A DNA stretch of 64,000 bases, taken from positions 62,001-126,000 of the forward strand of contig LNIY01000073.1 of NCBI GenBank assembly GCA_001449105.1. Reading direction: 5' to 3'. Positions 5,561 to 29,257 of this stretch are shown here, piece after piece (the first letter of the stretch is position 1; each line of letters begins with the position of its first letter). This DNA is from Caulobacter vibrioides. Its GTDB lineage: Bacteria; Pseudomonadota; Alphaproteobacteria; Caulobacterales; Caulobacteraceae. Made by a program: the position numbers and the translations under genes. The notes under the pieces are model-generated. The model worked only from the letters and a program-made list of their open reading frames with translations. It made no database searches and had not been told where the DNA came from.

Positions 5561-7513
5561 ATGAAGCCCACACGTCGAGACATGGTCGCGCTGGCGGTGA
5601 TGTCGAGCGCCACGGCCGGCGGCGCCGCCAAGGCGGCCGCCGCGCAGGGATCGCGCGTCCACACGCTCGCCTCGCCCGACGGCCGCCTGAAGGCGACGCT
5701 GGACGCCTCGGGGACCACGCCGAAATGGAGCGTGACCCATGACGGCAAGCCGCTGCTGCTGCCGTCGGAGCTGGGGCTGTGGCTGGCCGAGGGCCGGCTG
5801 CTGGGCGAGGGAGGCAAGGTCGCCGGTGTTACGCCGGAGACCTTCGAGGGCGACTGGACGCCGGTGTTCGGCCAGTCGTCGCGCTACGACCAGTCGGGGC
5901 GGCAGATCACCCTGCACATGGTCGATCCCAAGGCCGGCGTCCGCTTCGACATCGTGCTGCGGGTGCTGAACGGCGCGGCCGCGGTGCGTTACGTCCTGAC
6001 CGGCCTGCCGAAGGGCGGGAAGCTGTCCCTGATGGGCGAGCGCACTCGTTTCCGGTTTCCCGATACGGCGCGGCTCTACGCCAGCCGCGACGAGGGCGAC
6101 ATCCATGTCTCGACCCAGGCCGCCCTGGCGCCGCTTGAGCACCCGGACCTGACGGGCTCGTCCGACAAGGGGCCCTATGCCGACCTGCCGATCACGGTGG
6201 ACGCCGGCAACGGCGTCTTCGGTTTCCTGGCCGAGTCCGACCGGTTGCACTACCCGCGCTGCATGGCCCGGGCGCATGAGCAGGGAGGGCTCGTCACCTA
6301 CCTGATGCGCTATCCGGGGCGGGCGACCGGCTGGGGCGGCGAAGACGACACGCCGCAGGAGCCGACCTTCGAGATCGAGGTCGGCCAGAAGACGCCCTGG
6401 CGCATCCTCCTGGCGGCCGACAGCGCCAAGGGACTGATCGAGCTGCACCACGTGGTCCCGACCCTGGCGACCCCGAACCAGCTGGGCGACGTCTCGTGGG
6501 TGAAGCCGGGCCACGCCTTCCGGATCATGAAGCCCTATTCGACGCAGGCCTCGCTGAAGGCGGTCGATTTCGCGCAGAAGCGCAACATCGGCTACGTGCT
6601 GTTCGACGCCCACTGGTACGGCGACGGGACAGACGCCTCGGATCCTACCGCGCCGATCGCGGCTTTGGACCTGCAACGGGTGATCGACTACGCCAGGGCC
6701 CGGAACATCGGCGTGCTGGTCTATATCGACCGCGTGGCCGTGACCAAGGCGCTGGCCGACATGTGCCGCCTGTATCAGCGCTGGGGTCTGGCGGGCGTGA
6801 AGCTGGGCTTCATGTGGGAGGGGCGCCAGTCGGATGTCGATTTCATCACCAAGGTCGTGCGGGCCTTTGGTGAGCACGGCATGGTCGTGAACCTGCACGA
6901 CAACCTGCGGCCGGCCGGCCTGGAGCGGACCCTGCCCAACTACCTGACCCTGGAGGGGGTGAAGGGCAACGAGCAGTTCCCCGCCGCGCGTCACCACGTG
7001 AACCTGGCCTTCACCCGGCCGATCGCCGGGCCGATCGACTACACCATCTGCTACGCCCAGGAGCGCAACCAGACCACCAACGCCCACCAGCTGGCCCTGG
7101 CGGTCACCTGCTACAGCCCGCTGACGCTGCTCTACTGGTACGACAAGCCCGAGAAGTACGAGGACAAGCCCTGGCCGGAGCTGGAGTGGTTCGACGCCTG
7201 CCCCACGACCTGGGACGAGACCCGGGCGATCGCCGGCGAGCTTGGCGAGTATGTCGTCATCGCCCGGCGCAAGGGCGCGACCTGGTATCTCGGCGCGTTG
7301 ACCAACGAGATGGAGCGGCGCCTGGATCTGGATCTCGGCTTCCTGGGACAGGGGCGCTGGACGGCGGTGCGCTACAAGGACGGCGATCTGGCCCGGCCCG
7401 CCAATCGCACCCGCGTGGTGATCGAGCGACAGGCCGTCGACGCCAAGACGCGCCTGCGCCTGCAACTGAACGCGGCCGGCGGCCAGGCCATCCGTTTCGA
7501 GCCGGCTTCCTGA
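5561..7513 (+). CDS. Glycoside hydrolase family 97 (alpha-glucosidase/alpha-galactosidase type)
   Basis: A 650-aa exported enzyme with the GH97 order: signal sequence with an RR pair (TRRDMVAL...), N-terminal beta-sandwich (SPDGRLKATLDASG to about residue 270), central TIM barrel (GYVLFDAHWYG, GVLVYIDR, MVVNLHDNLRPAG, GNEQF) and a C-terminal beta domain. In retaining GH97 members an Asp nucleophile sits in a K[IV]DF-type strand; here this is KLGFM with Gly416, so the enzyme should belong to the inverting, SusB-like subgroup, with acidic residues Asp447, Glu465 and Glu471 as candidates. GGGGAGG precedes the ATG. A 14-bp operator controls it. Expected role: removing alpha-linked hexoses from oligosaccharides in the periplasm. 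Confidence 0.9.
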   Translation: MKPTRRDMVALAVMSSATAGGAAKAAAAQGSRVHTLASPDGRLKATLDASGTTPKWSVTHDGKPLLLPSELGLWLAEGRLLGEGGKVAGVTPETFEGDWTPVFGQSSRYDQSGRQITLHMVDPKAGVRFDIVLRVLNGAAAVRYVLTGLPKGGKLSLMGERTRFRFPDTARLYASRDEGDIHVSTQAALAPLEHPDLTGSSDKGPYADLPITVDAGNGVFGFLAESDRLHYPRCMARAHEQGGLVTYLMRYPGRATGWGGEDDTPQEPTFEIEVGQKTPWRILLAADSAKGLIELHHVVPTLATPNQLGDVSWVKPGHAFRIMKPYSTQASLKAVDFAQKRNIGYVLFDAHWYGDGTDASDPTAPIAALDLQRVIDYARARNIGVLVYIDRVAVTKALADMCRLYQRWGLAGVKLGFMWEGRQSDVDFITKVVRAFGEHGMVVNLHDNLRPAGLERTLPNYLTLEGVKGNEQFPAARHHVNLAFTRPIAGPIDYTICYAQERNQTTNAHQLALAVTCYSPLTLLYWYDKPEKYEDKPWPELEWFDACPTTWDETRAIAGELGEYVVIARRKGATWYLGALTNEMERRLDLDLGFLGQGRWTAVRYKDGDLARPANRTRVVIERQAVDAKTRLRLQLNAAGGQAIRFEPAS

Positions 7514-7529: not shown

Positions 7530-7557
7530 AAAAAAAAGGGCGCCTGCAGGGGCGCCC
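7530..7557 (-). terminator. Intrinsic terminator reading leftward
   Basis: On the minus strand a GGGCGCC/GGCGCCC stem (7557-7551 with 7544-7538, 6-nt loop) is followed by eight U residues (7537-7530). This is a classic rho-independent terminator. It can end the GH43 transcript, and also any short transcript starting at the operator/promoter at 7621-7654. On the plus strand no T-tract follows, so it should not stop GH97 transcription. Confidence 0.85.
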
Positions 7558-7619
7558 GCCTTGGAGTGATGGAGGAAAGTAGATCCAAGAAGGCGGCGTC
7601 GCAGAACACCGCTGAAGAC
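7530..7619 (-). ncRNA. Candidate operator-controlled small RNA
   Basis: On the minus strand TTGACT (7654-7649), a 17-nt spacer and TATCGA (7631-7626) form a promoter-like pair, with the 14-bp operator (7634-7621) across the -10. Transcription from about 7619 would reach the strong terminator at 7557-7530, giving an RNA of roughly 90 nt. There is no clear ribosome-binding site plus ATG in it. It holds a UUUCCUCC stretch (7578-7571) complementary to Shine-Dalgarno sequences, a hallmark of base-pairing regulators. The same segment could simply be the GH43 3' UTR with a spare operator. All of this is prediction. Confidence 0.35.
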
Positions 7620-7620
7620 G

Positions 7621-7634
7621 TGGTATCGATATCA
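7621..7634. promoter_or_regulatory. LacI-type operator between convergent GH97 and GH43 genes
   Basis: TGGTATCGATATCA, one base off the perfect palindrome found elsewhere. It is the only copy of this motif that does not precede a protein-coding gene: GH97 ends at 7513 on the plus strand and GH43 ends at 7690 on the minus strand. It may control a small RNA, serve as an auxiliary looping site, or be the relic of a lost gene. Confidence 0.7.
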
Positions 7635-7689
7635 AAATCTGAGCTCGCAGTCAAGCGCTCGGTGTTCGTCGAGCGCTGTGCTGCGCTTC

Positions 7690-9432
7690 CTAGCGCGTCA
7701 CCTGGAAGCCGTCGAAGTCGGTCCAGCCGATGCGGGTCGAGGTGTTGGCCGGCGTGCCGGCAGGAGCCTGGGAGAAGACGCCGATCTGGCTGCCGACCCA
7801 GCGTCCCGGGCGGCTGAGGAACGGCGCGCCGACGGGGGTGAAGGTCTTGCCGTCGGCGCTGTAGCTCAGGGTCACCTTGGCGTGCATCGATCGCAGCATC
7901 GAGGGCCAGTAGGGCGAGAAGTCCGGCGGAGGATCGGCCACGACCACGGGCTCGGCGGTCATCCGCAGCCAGACGGCGGCGGCCGGGGCCTTGGCCTGGA
8001 TCACCTCGACGCGCTCGGGCTGGAACTTGTCGGCGCCCAGGCGGTCAACGCGGACCAGGGCCGGTCCCGTCGCCGTGTTCTGCAGGCCGATCCAGGCATA
8101 GTCCGAGCCGAACATCAGCAGGCCCGCGCGCTCGCCGACCGCCTTGGGCGCGAAGTCGAGCCTGGTAGTGACGGTGAAGCGCTCGGCCGGCAGTTTCTGG
8201 GTCAGCAGGGCGCCGGTTTCCCAGAGATTCTCCGGCGAGGAGATCGATTTGAGGCGCAGCTTGCCCGGCGCGGCCTTCAGGTCGGCCCAGTCGCCGGCGG
8301 GATTGGCGTTCCACTGCCAGGCCGGCGACAGCGCGCCGTCGAAGTCGTCGCTGTCCTGCGGAGCCAGGCGCGGGGAGGGGACTTTCGAGGCCGGCTTGCG
8401 ATGGGTCAGCACCGGCTGGCCGATGCCGTCGCCGTCCTTGTCCTCGCCGATCACCGGCCAGCCGTCCTTCCAGGCCATGGGTTGCAGCCAGACGCGGCGG
8501 CCGTAGGAGTCGGCGTCCTGGAAATGCAGGAACCAGTCCTCGCCGGTCGGCGTGGTCACCCACGCGCCCTGGTGGGGGCCATTGACCTCGGTGCGACCCT
8601 GGTCGAGCACGTTGCGGCCCTCGTAGGGCCCCTCCAGCCTGCGCGAGCGGAACACGCCCTGCCAGCCGCCCTTCACGCTGCCGCTGGGCACGAAGAGGTA
8701 GTACCAGCCGTCGCGCTTGTAGAGCTTGGGGCCCTCGGTGGTCATCCATGGGAACGGCCCGCGTGAGGTCATGACCTTCGGCTGCTTGTCGCCCTCGACC
8801 AGGGTGATCGCCTCGCCCTCGGCCTTGTCGCCGGCCTTGTTCAGGCGGCGGGCGGTGACGACATTGGCGAAGCCGGCGCGGCTGCGGGCGAAGGCGGTGA
8901 CCAGCCAGCCCTGGCCGTCGTCGTCCCAGAAAGGCGCGGGATCGATGACGCCGCGCCGGTCGTCGACCAGCACCGGCTTGGACCACGGCCCGGCCGGATC
9001 CTTGGCCCGGACCACGAACACGCCGAAGTCGGGATCGGGGTAGTAGATCAGGAACTCGCCGTCGCGGTGACGGATCGCTGGGGCCCAGACGCCGCCGCCG
9101 CGACGGGGCGTGGCGTGGTGCGCCTCGGGTGTGTTGGCGGTCAGGGCGTGGCCGATGATCGTCCAGTTGACGAGATCCGTCGACTTCAGGATCGGCAGGC
9201 CCGGGACGTTGGTGAACGAGGACGAGACCAGGTAGTAGGCGTCGCCCACGCGGATGGCGTCGGGATCGGAATAGTCGCCGGCCAGGACGGGGTTCTTGTA
9301 GGTTCCGTCGCCGAGATCGGGCAGCCAGGCGCGTTCGCTTCCAGCGTTATCGGCCGCCGAGGCGGAGGTCGCCAGCAGGACCGCCGCGGCGATCAATCCC
9401 AGTCCGAGCGAGGTGCGACCCGAGCCTGCCAT
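7690..9432 (-). CDS. Glycoside hydrolase family 43 (beta-xylosidase/alpha-arabinofuranosidase type)
   Basis: A 580-aa secreted enzyme: signal peptide (to about residue 27), five-bladed beta-propeller and a C-terminal beta-sandwich (from about residue 350) like that of two-domain GH43 enzymes. The catalytic triad is visible: base Asp56 in DYSDPDAI, pKa-modulating Asp164 in VIDPAPFWD and acid Glu233 in TTEGPKLY. GH43 enzymes remove beta-xylosyl or alpha-arabinosyl side groups, or cleave galactan chains; the exact specificity is not readable here. It is a single-gene unit with its own operator (9455-9468) and an intrinsic terminator at 7530-7557. Confidence 0.92.
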   Translation of the reverse strand: MAGSGRTSLGLGLIAAAVLLATSASAADNAGSERAWLPDLGDGTYKNPVLAGDYSDPDAIRVGDAYYLVSSSFTNVPGLPILKSTDLVNWTIIGHALTANTPEAHHATPRRGGGVWAPAIRHRDGEFLIYYPDPDFGVFVVRAKDPAGPWSKPVLVDDRRGVIDPAPFWDDDGQGWLVTAFARSRAGFANVVTARRLNKAGDKAEGEAITLVEGDKQPKVMTSRGPFPWMTTEGPKLYKRDGWYYLFVPSGSVKGGWQGVFRSRRLEGPYEGRNVLDQGRTEVNGPHQGAWVTTPTGEDWFLHFQDADSYGRRVWLQPMAWKDGWPVIGEDKDGDGIGQPVLTHRKPASKVPSPRLAPQDSDDFDGALSPAWQWNANPAGDWADLKAAPGKLRLKSISSPENLWETGALLTQKLPAERFTVTTRLDFAPKAVGERAGLLMFGSDYAWIGLQNTATGPALVRVDRLGADKFQPERVEVIQAKAPAAAVWLRMTAEPVVVADPPPDFSPYWPSMLRSMHAKVTLSYSADGKTFTPVGAPFLSRPGRWVGSQIGVFSQAPAGTPANTSTRIGWTDFDGFQVTR

Positions 9433-9499: not shown

Positions 9500-10522
9500 T
9501 CAGGCCGGTGGAGGGGCTGTCGAGGCGCGCTGGATCAGCTGCAGCTGCGCCTGCACGTGGCCGCCGGGTTCGGCGCTGGGGCGGGCCAGGTCCATGGCCA
9601 GCAGCACGGCCGAGGCCGCCATGTCGGCGATGGGCTGACGGATGGTGGTCAGCTCCGGCCAGACCGTGGTGGCCACCGAGGTGTCGTCGAAACCCGCGAT
9701 GCTGAGATCGCTGGGGATCGACAGGCCCAGGCCGTGGGCCACGGCGCTGATCGCCGCGGCCATGTCGTCGTTGGCCGCGAAGATCGCCGACGGGCGGCGG
9801 CGCAGGCCCAGCAGATGCCGCGCCGCGTCGAGGCCGCCGCGATAGCTGAAGCCGCCGTCGGCGACATAGGCCTCATTCACGGTCAGGCCGGCGGCGGCCA
9901 TGGTCTCGCGGAAGCCCTTCTCGCGCAGCTGGGCCGTGGAGTGGGCCGGATCGCCGCGTACGAAGGCGATGTCGACATGGCCCAGGTCCAGCAGGTGCTG
10001 GGTCATCATCCGGGCGCCCTCGAAGTCGTCGATGAACACCGCCGGCGCGCCCTCTCGGGGGCGAGCCGTGGCGAAGCTCACCGCCCCGACCCCGGCCTTT
10101 TCCAGCGACTCCAGGATCGCTGCGTCGTCGCACAGCGGTGGCGGCAGGATCACCGCTCCCACGCCTGCGTCGACCAGCTTCTGCACCGCCTGGGCGGGCG
10201 TCGGGTGTGCCTGGCTGGGCTCGATCAGCAGCTGGCAGCCGCTGAGGCTGGCCTGTCGGAACGCGCCCATCAGGTAGTTCGACAGGTTCGACGAGCTGGC
10301 GTTGGAATACAGCATGCCGATCTGCGAGACGCCGGTGCGGGTGGCCCTGGCCAGTGAGTTCGGCCGATAGCCCAGCGCCTTGATGGCTTCCTCGACCTTC
10401 TCGCGCACGGCCGGCCGCACGTGGGGATAGCCGTTGACCACGCGGGAGGCGGTCATCGAGGACACGCCGGCGTGCTGCGCCACGTCATGGATGGTCGGCG
10501 CCTGTCGCCTCTGCGTGGTCAA
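9500..10522 (-). CDS. LacI-family transcriptional regulator (first of two)
   Basis: A 340-aa LacI/GalR regulator: HTH at residues 10-33 (TIHDVAQHAGVSSMTASRVVNG), hinge at about 56-62 and a periplasmic-binding-like sugar sensor domain (RPSAIFAANDDMAAAI, DLSIAGFDDT). It starts with TTG at 10522 preceded by GGCGAGGA; no ATG fits. It is divergent from, and clearly paralogous to, the second LacI gene at 10663 (both carry LPPPLCD, IDDFEGA and similar stretches). In the hinge, ARAT replaces the usual ARSL. It is a candidate repressor for the 14-bp operators of the locus. Confidence 0.93.
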   Translation of the reverse strand: MTTQRRQAPTIHDVAQHAGVSSMTASRVVNGYPHVRPAVREKVEEAIKALGYRPNSLARATRTGVSQIGMLYSNASSSNLSNYLMGAFRQASLSGCQLLIEPSQAHPTPAQAVQKLVDAGVGAVILPPPLCDDAAILESLEKAGVGAVSFATARPREGAPAVFIDDFEGARMMTQHLLDLGHVDIAFVRGDPAHSTAQLREKGFRETMAAAGLTVNEAYVADGGFSYRGGLDAARHLLGLRRRPSAIFAANDDMAAAISAVAHGLGLSIPSDLSIAGFDDTSVATTVWPELTTIRQPIADMAASAVLLAMDLARPSAEPGGHVQAQLQLIQRASTAPPPA

Positions 10523-10655
10523 GGAATCCTCGCCTCAATACGACTCTCTGCGGGTCGCCGCGCAGTCTAGCGAGGACAGGACGGGTAAGTCCAAGGTTGC
10601 GGGCCCAACATCCGTTTTTGCTCTGGTGCGGCTGGCGCGCGTCGCTAGGATGCAT

Positions 10656-10669
10656 TGGTATCGTGAACA
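10656..10669. promoter_or_regulatory. Degenerate LacI-type operator at the start of the second LacI gene
   Basis: TGGTATCGTGAACA keeps the left half-site of the locus operator and part of the right (two departures from the consensus). It overlaps the likely GTG start codon at 10663. If used it would give autoregulation, but the match could be chance. Confidence 0.35.
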
Positions 10670-11784
10670 ATGGTGGTGCGTCGTTGAAAAGTCCCCGCAA
10701 AGCCAAGGCGGCCGCGCCGTCTTCAGCGCGTGGCTCGTCGCCCAACCCCAGGCCGGGGCCCAAGACGATCACCATCCATGACGTGGCGCGCCACGCCGGC
10801 GTCGGCTCGATGACCGTCTCGCGGGTGATCCGCGGGGCCGGCAATGTCAGCGCGGGCATGCGCGAGAAGGTCGAGGCCTCGGTCCGCGCCCTGAACTACC
10901 AGGTCAATGTCGCCGCCCGCGCCACCCGCTCGCGCTCGGCCGCGGCGCGGGTCGGGATTCTCTACAGCAACCCCAGCGCCTCCTATCTCAGCGAGATCAT
11001 GGTCGGCGGGCTGGAGCAGAGCTCGCGCCTGGCCAGCCACCTGATCCTGGAGCGATGCGAGGGGCTGGCGGGCCAGAAGCAGGCGGTCAAGCGCCTGCTG
11101 GCCGCCGGCGTCGACGGGGTGATCCTGCCGCCGCCGCTGTGCGACTCCCGCCAGACCATCAACATGCTGCGCGCCGAGGGCGTGACGGTGCTGGCCCTGG
11201 CCACCGCCCGGCCGATGATCGACGTCTCCAGCGTGCGCATCGACGACTTCGAGGGCGCGCTGGCCATGACCCGCCACCTCATCGCCCTGGGCCATCGCGA
11301 CATCGCCTTCATCAAGGGCGATCCTCAGCACACCCCGACCGAGCTGCGCTACGAAGGCTTCCTGGCCGGCATGGCGGAAGCGGGCCTGACCGTGCGGCCC
11401 GAATGGGTGGCCCAAGGGCTGTTCACCTACCGCTCGGGCCTGGCGGCGGCGGAGAAGCTGTTCGAGGCGCGGCTGCGGCCCAGCGCCATCTTCGCCAGCA
11501 ACGACGACATGGCCGCCGCCGCCCTGGCCGTGGCCCACGGCCGCCAGATCGCCGTGCCGCGCGACCTGACCATCTGCGGCTTCGACGACACCGCCGTCGC
11601 CAGCACCGTCTGGCCCGAGGTGACGACCATCCACCAGCCGATCGCCGAGATGGGCCGCGCGGCCGTTCGGCTGATCGTCGACGAGATCCGCGCCCGCAAG
11701 GCCGGCGGCGACCCCGCGCCCGTCCATCACCTGCTGCCGTTCACGCTGATGGACCGGGACTCGTCGGGCCCCGCGCCGCCTTAG
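10663..11784 (+). CDS. LacI-family transcriptional regulator (second of two)
   Basis: A LacI/GalR regulator of about 373 aa. A basic, low-complexity leader (KSPRKAKAAAPSSARGSS) precedes the HTH (TIHDVARHAGVGSMTVSRVIRG), then an ARATRS hinge and the sugar-binding domain (RPSAIFASNDDMAAAA, DLTICGFDDT). The start is uncertain: GTG 10663 and TTG 10684 both fit and neither has a strong ribosome-binding site. It is a divergent paralogue of the neighbouring regulator with a nearly identical recognition helix, so both may compete for the same operators but answer to different sugars. Its stop codon overlaps that of the convergent ROK kinase gene. Confidence 0.9.
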   Translation: MNNGGASLKSPRKAKAAAPSSARGSSPNPRPGPKTITIHDVARHAGVGSMTVSRVIRGAGNVSAGMREKVEASVRALNYQVNVAARATRSRSAAARVGILYSNPSASYLSEIMVGGLEQSSRLASHLILERCEGLAGQKQAVKRLLAAGVDGVILPPPLCDSRQTINMLRAEGVTVLALATARPMIDVSSVRIDDFEGALAMTRHLIALGHRDIAFIKGDPQHTPTELRYEGFLAGMAEAGLTVRPEWVAQGLFTYRSGLAAAEKLFEARLRPSAIFASNDDMAAAALAVAHGRQIAVPRDLTICGFDDTAVASTVWPEVTTIHQPIAEMGRAAVRLIVDEIRARKAGGDPAPVHHLLPFTLMDRDSSGPAPP

Positions 11785-12713
11785 GCGGCCGGGGCGGCCA
11801 GCAGCGCGCGGGCCTCTTCCACGCTCCACAGCCGCGCGGCGCCGCGCACGCCCGAGGCGTCGCCCCAGACGGCCGGCTTGATCCGGGTGCTCCAGCGGTC
11901 GGCGAAGACGTGGCGCGAGATGAGGTCGGGCAGGCGCTGGCAGACTTCGGGCACGTTCGACAGCCCGCCGCCGACGACGATGGCGTCGGGGTCGAGGATG
12001 TTGCACAGCACCGCCACCGAGCGGCCCAGGCGGTCCATCAGCCGGTCGAAGGCGGTGGTGGCGGCCGGATCGCCGGCCCGCCAGGCGGCTATGATCTGCT
12101 CGCCGCTCCAGTTTTGACCCGTGGTCTCCTGGAAGTCGCGCCGCAGGCCGGTGCCCGACACCCACATCTCCAGGCAGCCGTTCTGGCCGCACCAGCAGCG
12201 GGGACCTTCGCGTTCCTCGACGGTGGGCCAGGGCAGGGGCATGTGGCCCCATTCGCCGGCGATGCCGTTCTCGCCCTCGATAAGCTTGCCGTCGACGACG
12301 AGGCCGCCGCCGCAGCCGGTGCCCAGGATGATGGCGAACACCACCCGCGCGCCCGCGCCGGCGCCGTCGACGGCTTCCGACAGGGCCAGGCAGTTGGCGT
12401 CGTTGGCCAGCCGCACCGGCCGCTGCAACGCCTCGGACAGGTCCTCGCGAAAGCGCCGGCCGTTCAGGTACAGCGAATTGGCGTTGCGCATCACGCCGGT
12501 GGCCGGCGAGATAGAGCCCGGTGCGCCGACGCCTAGCGTGCCGCGCGCGCCGAGCTTGTGTTCCAGGCCCGTCACCAGGTCGCGGACGGTGCTCAGCGCC
12601 TTGTCGTAGTCGCCCGGGTTGGGAACGCGGGCCTTGGCCAGCAGCTTGCCGCTGGCGTCCAGGGCGGCGGCCTCCACCTTGGTGCCGCCGAAATCCACGC
12701 CGATCTGAATCAC
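11781..12713 (-). CDS. ROK-family sugar kinase
   Basis: A 310-aa cytoplasmic ROK kinase. The N-terminal phosphate-binding loop (DFGGTKVEAAALD), the ROK signature region (GTGCGGGLVVDGKLIEGENGIAGEWGH) and the zinc motif CWCGQNGCLE are intact, as in fructokinase, glucokinase and N-acetylhexosamine kinases of the group; the sugar cannot be assigned. The GTG start at 12713 overlaps the TGA of the GH88 gene (GTGA) with GGGAG upstream, so it is the third gene of an MFS-GH88-ROK operon. It probably phosphorylates a hexose released by the locus enzymes. Its stop overlaps that of the convergent LacI gene. Confidence 0.88.
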   Translation of the reverse strand: MIQIGVDFGGTKVEAAALDASGKLLAKARVPNPGDYDKALSTVRDLVTGLEHKLGARGTLGVGAPGSISPATGVMRNANSLYLNGRRFREDLSEALQRPVRLANDANCLALSEAVDGAGAGARVVFAIILGTGCGGGLVVDGKLIEGENGIAGEWGHMPLPWPTVEEREGPRCWCGQNGCLEMWVSGTGLRRDFQETTGQNWSGEQIIAAWRAGDPAATTAFDRLMDRLGRSVAVLCNILDPDAIVVGGGLSNVPEVCQRLPDLISRHVFADRWSTRIKPAVWGDASGVRGAARLWSVEEARALLAAPAA

Positions 12714-26291: not shown

Positions 26292-29201
26292 ATGAAGTCC
26301 GCGTATCAATCGCGTCTGTTCCTGACCGCATCGACGCTGGCCGTCGCGCTCGGTGTATCCGGCACCGCCGGCGCCCAGACCGCGCCGCCCCCGGCGACCG
26401 AGGAGGCCGTCGAGGAGGTGGTCGTCACCGGCATCCGCCAGAGCCTGCAGTCGGCCGTGCAGGTCAAGAAGAACACCATGGAGGTCGTCGACTCCATCCG
26501 CGCCGAGGACATCGGCAAGCTGCCCGACCCCAATGTCGCCGAGACCCTGACCCGCATCCCGGGCGTGCAGGGCTACCGCTACGGCGGCGAGGGGGCCTCG
26601 CCTGTCGGCGCCGGTTCGGGCCTGACGATCCGCGGCCTGTCGGGCCAGACCGCCTCGCAGGTCGACGGCCGCTCGTACTTCACCGCCGGCGGCAGCGAGT
26701 TCAACATCGAGGCCGCCATTCCCGGCATGATCGCGGGCCTGGACGTCTACAAGAACCCCTCGGCCGAGCACATCGAGGGCGGCATCGGCGGCCTGGTGGA
26801 CATCAAGACCCGCCGCCCGCTGGACCTGCCGAAGATGTCGGGCAGCGTCGCGATCTCCGGTCGCTACAATGACATGGTCAAGCAGATGCAGCCCGAGTAC
26901 TTCGGCCTCGTCTCGCACAAGTGGGACGTGGGCGAGGGCGAGATGGGCCTGCTGCTCGGCGCCAATTATCAGAAGAGCTGGAACCGCTCGGACAACGCGC
27001 CGGGCCCCGGCGGGACCAACCTGCGCCGCGTGGTGCGCGCCGACAGCGCCGAGTACATCGGCAACAGCGCCTACAACCAGGCCTATGCGGGCCGCAGCGA
27101 CGTCGCCTTCCTGGCCGACGTGGCCAATCCGCTGGCCCTAGGCGCCGCCGACCGCGCCAACCTGGTCAACATGGCCGGCGTGCAGATCAACGTGAACGAA
27201 GAGGACATCCAGCGCACCCGCAAGGGCTTCGCCGGCGCCTTCCAGTGGAAGGTGCGCCCGGGTCTCGAGTTCTATGTCGACGGCAACTACAATTCGTACC
27301 TGTACCACCAGGGCTATCGCTTCCTGAACGGCGTCGACAGCCGTTACGTCCAGGGCCTGGCGACCACGCCATTCAGCACCACCGAGGGCCTGGCCAGCCG
27401 CAACGCCAACGGCGGCGAGGACGCGGTGCTGGCCGGCCAGCGCTTCGACCGGGGCACGTTCCTGGGCTCCAGCTTCTCGTCGATCGGGGGCGACGAGCAC
27501 CGCATCTACAAGACCTGGATCCTGGCCGGGGGCGCCAAGTGGTCGCCGACCGACGACCTCGACCTCAAGGCCGACCTTTCCTACGTCAAGGCCGACCAGC
27601 ACCAGGACAACCGCTCGGTGACCATGACCCCGCGCGCGGGCCTGGCCTGGGACGTGACCCGTACGGTTGGAACGCCCCAGCGCCTGTCGATCAGCGGCCC
27701 GGACCTGTCGAACCCGGCCAACTGGGTGCTGGTGAACTACGCCAACGGTACCAACAACGTCTATGACGACGCCGGCCTGGCCGCCCAGTTCGACGGCAAG
27801 CTGCGCGTCAACGACAGCTTCATCAAGGCCGTGAAGTTCGGCGCGCGCTACTACCGAAAGAAGTCGAAGTTCTACAACTACTCCTTCAGCGGCAAGAACC
27901 TGACCACCGATGGCCTGGCGCTTACGGCCAGCCAGTCGAACGGGATCCTCGCCTCGACCGTGCAGGACCTCGTCGCCGGCTCGCACACCAACTGGTTCGA
28001 CGGCGAGGCCGGCTATTCGGGCGGCTTCCTGACCTTCTCGCCCGACGCCCTGCTTGGCGACAACGTCCGCAACCGCTTCGCCCTGGCCGGCATACCGGCC
28101 GAGGACTCGCTGCCCGAGGTGCTGCTGTCGCGCCGCAAGGCGGTGGAGGAGACCCTGGCGGGCTACGGCGTGGTCGACTTCGCCTTCCTGAACGACCGCA
28201 TCCGCGGCAACGCCGGCGTGCGGGTGGTGCGCACCGATCTCGACGCCGAGGCCCGGGTTTCCGACACCAGCGGCGGCACGGCGGTGATCGTGCCCAAGAG
28301 CCAGGGCAACAGCTACACCGACGTGCTGCCCACGCTGAACGTCACCGGCTACATCCAGGACGACCTCCTGCTGCGCTTCGGCTTCGGCAAGGGCATGACC
28401 CGGCCCAGCGTCGGAGACATCAACCCGACCGTGGCGGTCAACCTGACCAGCGGCACGGGCAGCCAGGGCAACGCCAACCTGCAGCCGTTGCGGGCCTACA
28501 GCTACGACCTGTCGCTGGAGAAGTACTTCGGCGCGACCAGCTATGTCTCGGCCGCGGCGTTCTACAAGAAGGTCGACGGCTTCCCGATCGGGGTCGAGAG
28601 CTGTCAGACGGTTGCGACCTCGCAGCCCTATACCGGCGTGACGCCCAACAACTGCCCCACCGGCCAGTTCCGCATCACCCAGACCCAGAACGCCGACCCC
28701 GGCTTCGCAAAGGGTGTCGAGCTCGCCGCCCAGACCTTCTTCGACTACGACTTCCTGCCGGAGGTCCTGCACGCTTTCGGCGTCCAGGGCTCGTACACCT
28801 GGGTCAAGACCGAGCTGCCGATCCTGATCAACGGCCAGGTGGTCAAGGTGCGCCAGCCGTTCCAGTCCGACCAGAACTGGAGCCTGGCGGGCCTCTACGA
28901 GAACAAGCGGCTGTCGGCGCGCCTCGTCTACACCTACCGCTCGGACTACGTGCTGTTCGGGATCTCGCCCAACCCGATCGACGGCCGCTACCTGAAGGGC
29001 TACGGCCTGCTCGACGCCTCGGTGAACGTCAATCTGCGCGACGACCTGACCCTGTCGCTGACGGCCTCCAACCTGACCAACAAGGCGCCGATCCGCTACG
29101 TCGGCGAGCCGGACAACGGCTACGACACCGACATCCTGCGCCAGTACTTCATGAACGGCCGGGTCTACGGGGTCAGCCTTCGCTACAAGTTCGGCGGCTG
29201 A
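26292..29201 (+). CDS. TonB-dependent outer-membrane receptor (second of the polysaccharide locus)
   Basis: A 969-aa receptor: signal peptide ending GTAGAQ, TonB-box/plug start EEVVVTGIRQSLQSAVQVKKNTMEVVD, plug with LPDPNVAETLTRIPGVQ and IEGGIGGLVDIKTRRPLDL, and a barrel ending in VSLRYKFGG. The VVVTGIR...IGKLPDPNVAE pattern is that of the carbohydrate-type receptors abundant in Caulobacter and Xanthomonas. There is no STN domain. AGGAGGGG lies 6 nt before the ATG. It is controlled by the operator at 26118 and closed by a clear terminator at 29226-29257. It probably imports a different-sized oligomer than the first receptor. Confidence 0.93.
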   Translation: MKSAYQSRLFLTASTLAVALGVSGTAGAQTAPPPATEEAVEEVVVTGIRQSLQSAVQVKKNTMEVVDSIRAEDIGKLPDPNVAETLTRIPGVQGYRYGGEGASPVGAGSGLTIRGLSGQTASQVDGRSYFTAGGSEFNIEAAIPGMIAGLDVYKNPSAEHIEGGIGGLVDIKTRRPLDLPKMSGSVAISGRYNDMVKQMQPEYFGLVSHKWDVGEGEMGLLLGANYQKSWNRSDNAPGPGGTNLRRVVRADSAEYIGNSAYNQAYAGRSDVAFLADVANPLALGAADRANLVNMAGVQINVNEEDIQRTRKGFAGAFQWKVRPGLEFYVDGNYNSYLYHQGYRFLNGVDSRYVQGLATTPFSTTEGLASRNANGGEDAVLAGQRFDRGTFLGSSFSSIGGDEHRIYKTWILAGGAKWSPTDDLDLKADLSYVKADQHQDNRSVTMTPRAGLAWDVTRTVGTPQRLSISGPDLSNPANWVLVNYANGTNNVYDDAGLAAQFDGKLRVNDSFIKAVKFGARYYRKKSKFYNYSFSGKNLTTDGLALTASQSNGILASTVQDLVAGSHTNWFDGEAGYSGGFLTFSPDALLGDNVRNRFALAGIPAEDSLPEVLLSRRKAVEETLAGYGVVDFAFLNDRIRGNAGVRVVRTDLDAEARVSDTSGGTAVIVPKSQGNSYTDVLPTLNVTGYIQDDLLLRFGFGKGMTRPSVGDINPTVAVNLTSGTGSQGNANLQPLRAYSYDLSLEKYFGATSYVSAAAFYKKVDGFPIGVESCQTVATSQPYTGVTPNNCPTGQFRITQTQNADPGFAKGVELAAQTFFDYDFLPEVLHAFGVQGSYTWVKTELPILINGQVVKVRQPFQSDQNWSLAGLYENKRLSARLVYTYRSDYVLFGISPNPIDGRYLKGYGLLDASVNVNLRDDLTLSLTASNLTNKAPIRYVGEPDNGYDTDILRQYFMNGRVYGVSLRYKFGG

Positions 29202-29225
29202 GCCTCGCCGCATAAGTCCCGCCTG

Positions 29226-29257
29226 GGGTGCCGTCATCGACGGCGCCCTTCTTTTTT
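29226..29257 (+). terminator. Intrinsic terminator after the second TonB receptor
   Basis: GGGTGCCGTC (29226-29235) pairs with GACGGCGCCC (29239-29248) with one G-U pair and a 3-nt loop, followed by TTCTTTTTT. It starts 25 nt after the receptor stop codon. Confidence 0.88.

Follow-up and report, generated by a model that had tools for sequence, protein, structure and literature searches.

Control of polysaccharide-utilization loci (PULs) in Proteobacteria is usually described as the work of transcription factors only. RsaI of Staphylococcus aureus is a small RNA (sRNA) controlled by CcpA, that is, by a LacI/GalR-family regulator together with the sugar supply. In Bacteroides, the PUL-linked sRNAs GibS and FopS tune the expression of polysaccharide loci at translation initiation (PMC11697453). 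FopS is expressed from sigma-ABfr promoters and GibS responds to an unknown activating factor; a LacI-type operator has been shown for neither. In Caulobacter crescentus, the alphaR8 (MmgR/SisA) RNA SisA represses TonB-receptor and other mRNAs through an anti-Shine-Dalgarno 10-mer core, which is UUUCCUCCCU in SisA-D, and this core is bound by CrfA, a carbon-starvation RNA that acts as an Hfq-dependent sponge (PMC12559287). The alphaR8 paralogues differ in their promoters and have links with TonB receptors and carbon use (PMC12559287). Among open-licence papers, we found no sRNA in a proteobacterial PUL, no alphaproteobacterial one under a LacI operator specific to a PUL, and no anti-Shine-Dalgarno or PUL sRNA paired with LacI.

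The gene cluster described here is a Caulobacter PUL for the digestion of plant polysaccharides. It carries a predicted sRNA gene whose product shares with the alphaR8 RNAs (RF00519; SisA-D) a length of about 80-90 nt, one or more hairpins, the UC-rich UUUCCUCC(CU), and a strong terminator with a U tract. Unlike alphaR8, the locus RNA has its promoter under a PUL operator, and a CUUGG/CCAAG hairpin carries its seed in the loop, whereas that of alphaR8 is single-stranded after a short hairpin. CrfA is likewise a small RNA linked to carbon source choice, but it presents the opposite, G/A-rich strand and would be a partner of the locus RNA rather than a relative. GibS and FopS differ in belonging to another phylum and in their link to RbpB, and FopS has as its seed the 5' end, which is single-stranded. 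RsaI is unrelated as an RNA, and CcpA acts globally in catabolite regulation rather than as the local repressor of a PUL.

The window, the whole stretch of 64,000 nucleotides that was analyzed, holds every copy of the PUL operator. The pattern TGRTATCGATAYCA occurred in five exact copies in the 5,322,177-base genome, each within the PUL; with one mismatch allowed, nine copies were found genome-wide, all within the window, while the reversed pattern, used as a control, had no match in the genome. With up to three mismatches, the window contained 11 matches versus 1.6 expected. Eight of the nine operators fall within the upstream regions of PUL coding genes or close by, among them those for GH97, GH43, a LacY-type MFS transporter, GH28, and TonB receptors. 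The ninth lies between the convergent ends of the GH97 and GH43 genes with no gene behind it. The confinement of nine LacI-type palindromes to a stretch of about 27 kb delimits a sharply bounded regulon for one polysaccharide locus. A search of the genome with PF07715 also returned 121 TonB-receptor plug domains in 5.3 Mb, an unusually large repertoire for outer-membrane uptake. The relevant features of the locus are as follows.

5493, 7621, 9455, 15261, 15327, 17411, 23708, 26118, and 31873: positions of the nine operators with at most one mismatch
5561-7513, plus strand: GH97 enzyme gene, convergent to the sRNA unit and to GH43
7690-9432, minus strand: GH43 enzyme gene, upstream of the sRNA unit on the same strand
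9500-10522, minus strand: LacI-family regulator, candidate owner of the operator
10597-11784, plus strand: second LacI-family regulator, the other candidate owner of the operator

The preliminary description had placed promoter hexamers, an operator, a seed, a terminator stem, and a run of eight T around the ninth operator, and these coordinates proved exact to the base on the minus strand. The parts of the unit, at 7530-7654, are given below.

7654-7649, minus strand: -35-like hexamer TTGACT, of which TTGAC is invariant in all aligned close relatives
7631-7626, minus strand: -10-like hexamer TATCGA, inside the operator and separated from the -35 by a 17-nt spacer
7634-7621, minus strand: operator copy heading no gene, TGATATCGATACCA, overlapping the -10
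7620-7530, minus strand: predicted small RNA of 91 nt, with a start near 7620-7618
7612-7593, minus strand: hairpin 1, GCGGUGUU-CUGC-GACGCCGC, containing a CUGCGA motif
7590-7559, minus strand: hairpin 2, UCUUGG...CCAAGG, with an 18-nt pyrimidine-rich loop
7578-7571, minus strand: anti-Shine-Dalgarno-like stretch UUUCCUCC, unpaired in the loop of hairpin 2
7557-7530, minus strand: intrinsic terminator, a 7-bp stem GGGCGCC/GGCGCCC (7557-7538) followed by eight T (7537-7530)

As in a LacI-type PUL regulon, a locus-specific operator overlaps the promoter of this unit. The promoter hexamers failed a strict sigma-70 scan, TATCGA being without the final T, and for the terminator alone a simple scan gave no more than chance would (one found versus 1.8 expected); both therefore gain weight only from conservation. 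The predicted fold of 7530-7620 (minus strand), two hairpins and then the terminator, was better than that of 200 of 200 dinucleotide shuffles (z = -3.4). No start codon was common to the relatives across the sRNA region, and in one of them, L005, a 7-nt deletion breaks the frame. Together these argue against coding, and a small protein-coding gene was rejected. The unit thus combines what is expected of an sRNA gene, namely its own promoter, its own terminator, and the lack of a conserved reading frame.

Six further Caulobacter genomes (L001-L006) have GH97 and GH43 as convergent neighbors, as does an eighth genome, G197 (L035). All of these have the RNA and, in the same place, the operator, and in all of them TTGAC precedes TATCGA by about 17 nt. 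Six of six relatives and the eighth genome retain the promoter, the operator, both hairpins, and the terminator, and the terminator stem is invariant in alignment A3. Mean pairwise identity among the window and L001-L005 was 0.86 for both the RNA and the promoter/operator, versus 0.70 for the flanking spacer before the unit and 0.35 after it. The operator lies 56 nt past the GH43 stop codon in most members of the clade; in L006 this gap is 209 nt, with the unit from promoter to terminator intact. The insert in L006 (Caulobacter sp. D5; 2640-2815), which separates GH43 from the sRNA promoter, adds about 150 bases that contain GC-rich palindromic repeats, and it resembles an intergenic repeat element. 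In L005 (C. endophyticus BI; 11967-12051), little of the 5' arm of hairpin 2 survives the 7-nt deletion, and in this strain the RNA may be changed or in decay. In L001, L005, and L035, the long hairpin has a competitor in an inner one that partly hides the seed (UUGGA...UCCAA in L001).

We then looked beyond this clade and searched 75 Caulobacter genomes with a covariance model, R1, whose seven source sequences were those of the window and L001-L006. Matches directly behind an operator were obtained in G188 (46.9 bits) and G111 (37.9 bits), with weaker ones in L020 and L013. A second model, R2, which adds G188, G111, and L020, was searched in 390 Caulobacteraceae genomes and added G191 (49.4 bits), G086 (42.1 bits), G215 (25.8 bits, beginning at the last base of the operator), and G077, whose 63.7-bit match is not independent because its cassette reads identical to that of L020 in R2. 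Matches without an operator reached at most about 32 bits and were taken as terminator noise. Inspection of the DNA around further operators added G200, G194, and a second copy in G188, for a total of 17 operator-RNA cassettes in 16 Caulobacter genomes. None was found at the operators of the Asticcacaulis and sphingomonad loci (listed as L007-L012 and L017-L022). An R1/R2 match in the window itself at 29175-29256 (22 bits), along with its orthologues, was rejected as a second cassette, as it is the 3' end and terminator of a TonB gene. Apart from the cassettes and a few false matches, mostly inside MFS coding sequence, the other operator copies have no terminator behind them.

The cassettes fall into three groups by position. 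Those of group A, the window clade and G188, lie behind GH43; the G188 copy (L039) is beside GH43 and next to a thiolase-like gene, without GH97. Group B cassettes lie between MFS and GH28 (G111, G077, G086, and G191) or beside MFS (the second G188 copy) and mostly carry CCUGCGAA and a CUCGG/CCGAG-type hairpin. In group C (G194, G200, and G215), the cassettes have MFS on one side and GH28 or a TonB receptor on the other, and they contain a short GUCC-type inverted repeat and then a CU-rich stretch; their assignment, based on position and 22-26 bits, is the least certain. In eight genomes, a cassette adjoins the MFS transporter instead of GH43, and no coding gene lies upstream on the same strand of the group B and C copies. 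The L068 cassette stands between an MFS gene and a TonB receptor gene, the latter with operators of its own. The order of repeat and CU-rich stretch in the group C cassettes (L068 1488-1584, L131 349-444, and L133 373-467) is like that of alphaR8, with UUCCUCCCU in L068. Although group C is thus nearer to alphaR8, Rfam gave no suhB match for its copies. G188 holds two cassettes, one behind GH43 (L039 1488-1595) and one beside MFS (L143 256-349), which suggests that the cassette was duplicated or moved.

In the model-fitted alignment of the family, 94% of cells are paired, and both sides have changed in 11 of the 21 pairs, although this count leans toward the structure because the alignment was fitted to the model. 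Shuffles gave a mean of 2.3 such pairs, with none of 500 reaching 11, and slid controls gave at most three. The close clade alone provides weak evidence, with two covarying pairs and 45 of 500 shuffles as high. A structure conserved by compensatory changes, as in an sRNA gene, is therefore seen on the fitted alignment and only weakly in the close clade. Read directly from the sequences, hairpin 2 stays paired in both groups, a U-A pair of group A being replaced by C-G in group B.

These comparisons supported the proposal of a stand-alone non-coding sRNA unit under a LacI-type operator: promoter, operator, and terminator are kept in relatives, the unit recurs behind the operator elsewhere, and conservation of the operator where GH97 and GH43 stay neighbors, which the preliminary description had named among the points on which the idea could fail, was found in all six relatives. 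Of the promoter, seed, and terminator expected in related genomes, the first and last were retained, but the seed drifts in distant members, to UUCCCCCC in G111, UUCCUGCC in G077, and UUUUCC in G086. The embedding of the RNA in the GH43 3' region is a local matter, given the L006 insert and the eight genomes with a cassette beside MFS.

The seed UUUCCUCC represents 8 of 10 nt of the SisA-D core UUUCCUCCCU. An Rfam scan of the whole window nonetheless returned no family at gathering threshold; the best weak match was suhB. Against RF00519 (suhB/MmgR), the locus RNA scored 22.8 bits, below the gathering score of 41, while three true alphaR8 RNAs in the same genome scored 53.8-61.9 bits (C142:7391, C138:16223, and C24:18288). 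Two sub-threshold alphaR8 look-alikes, C107:10520 and C139:24422, were also seen, with UAUCCUCCC and AUUUCCUCCCC cores. The locus RNA has the Rho-independent terminator of the alphaR8 RNAs, but the UUUCCUCCCU core, single-stranded after a weak hairpin in that family, is here 8/10 complete and in the loop of hairpin 2. Because of the sub-threshold score and the different structural place of the core, we did not file the RNA as alphaR8. We regard it as a new family of predicted sRNAs that may work like an alphaR8 RNA.

The suggestion that the RNA retunes translation of TonB receptors found no backing in the complementarity comparisons. Complementarity to receptor leaders averaged -9.0 kcal/mol (26 receptors) versus -10.1 kcal/mol for 23 dehydrogenase controls, no excess, in a comparison that used rough start calls and covered 26 of the 121 receptors. 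A search of the whole genome for the extended 13-nt target TGGAGGAAAGTAG with at most one mismatch returned only the sRNA gene itself.

The nearest rival to a SisA-like mode of action is competition for CrfA or other SisA partners. In its strict form, the RNA would pair with no mRNA and would be a decoy that titrates CrfA, sustaining SisA-type repression while glycan is available. The RNA does have the core that CrfA binds in SisA-D (PMC12559287), but that core is incomplete, with 8 of 10 nt here and fewer elsewhere, and CrfA was not located in the genome. We consider the strict decoy improbable, if the best placed of the alternatives.

Another rival holds that the unit gives rise to no transcript of its own. 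LacI-type repressors often work with several operators, and the ninth operator could be an auxiliary site for looping or a roadblock, with the hairpin and U tract serving as the GH43 terminator. Operator and terminator can each be explained separately in this way, and the promoter hexamers do fail the strict scan. Neither function, however, accounts for an intervening sequence that is conserved and structured, nor for the recurrence of the unit where there is no gene to terminate, for example, between divergent MFS and GH28 genes, and this explanation seems to us quite unlikely. About as unlikely is derivation of the RNA from the GH43 3' UTR by mRNA processing without a promoter of its own. 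In keeping with such an origin, most clade members have the unit 56 nt past the GH43 stop codon, and the RNA and the GH43 mRNA would share a terminator. Against it, the unit has its own conserved promoter/operator, copies in groups B and C lack a same-strand coding gene upstream from which to be processed, and the L006 insert separates GH43 from an intact unit, which is therefore not simply the GH43 3' UTR. A cis-acting leader or attenuator, whose terminator would govern read-through into a downstream gene such as the same-strand GH28 of G111, G194, and others, is very improbable, since the window clade has antisense GH97 downstream and so no gene to control, and the GH28 or TonB genes behind cassettes mostly have their own operator.

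The sequence by itself establishes an operator/promoter, a conserved, structured, non-coding unit with a terminator, and the recurrence of that unit always behind the operator. That this is a genuine sRNA gene of the PUL regulon we regard as highly probable. With somewhat less confidence, though still as the likely reading, we take 7620-7530 (minus strand) to be a stand-alone PUL sRNA gene that is controlled by the repressor and acts in trans in the manner of SisA or by competing for SisA partners. Anti-Shine-Dalgarno pairing as the mode of action stands at about even chances, and any particular class of targets is less probable than that. Transcription, the identity of the repressor, induction by sugar, use of Hfq, and pairing with mRNA are what we infer for this RNA.

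Since the sRNA promoter overlaps the PUL operator, a LacI repressor should silence the sRNA when sugar is lacking; one of the two neighboring LacI-family proteins would do so until the inducing sugar appears. After release of the repressor, the RNA would be produced alongside the PUL enzymes, transporter, and receptors. The two-hairpin RNA would display the UC-rich UUUCCUCC, potentially able to cover Shine-Dalgarno sequences, and would act in trans, probably on Hfq, like Caulobacter SisA. It would in this way lower the translation of some mRNAs during glycan use, or alternatively it may compete with SisA for common partners, including the sponge CrfA.

A conserved RNA gene within the regulon of a local repressor would give the PUL a second, post-transcriptional output. 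As its seed matches the SisA core, one glycan may be linked to the SisA/CrfA feast-famine circuit, a suggestion open to direct testing. Much more tentatively, and as a generalization we think rather unlikely to hold in full, alphaproteobacterial polysaccharide loci might possess their own repressor-controlled sRNA gene, which moves and duplicates within the locus and on substrate induction takes over the seed used by the housekeeping carbon circuit of alphaR8 and CrfA, so that each glycan would re-rank the other uptake systems post-transcriptionally.
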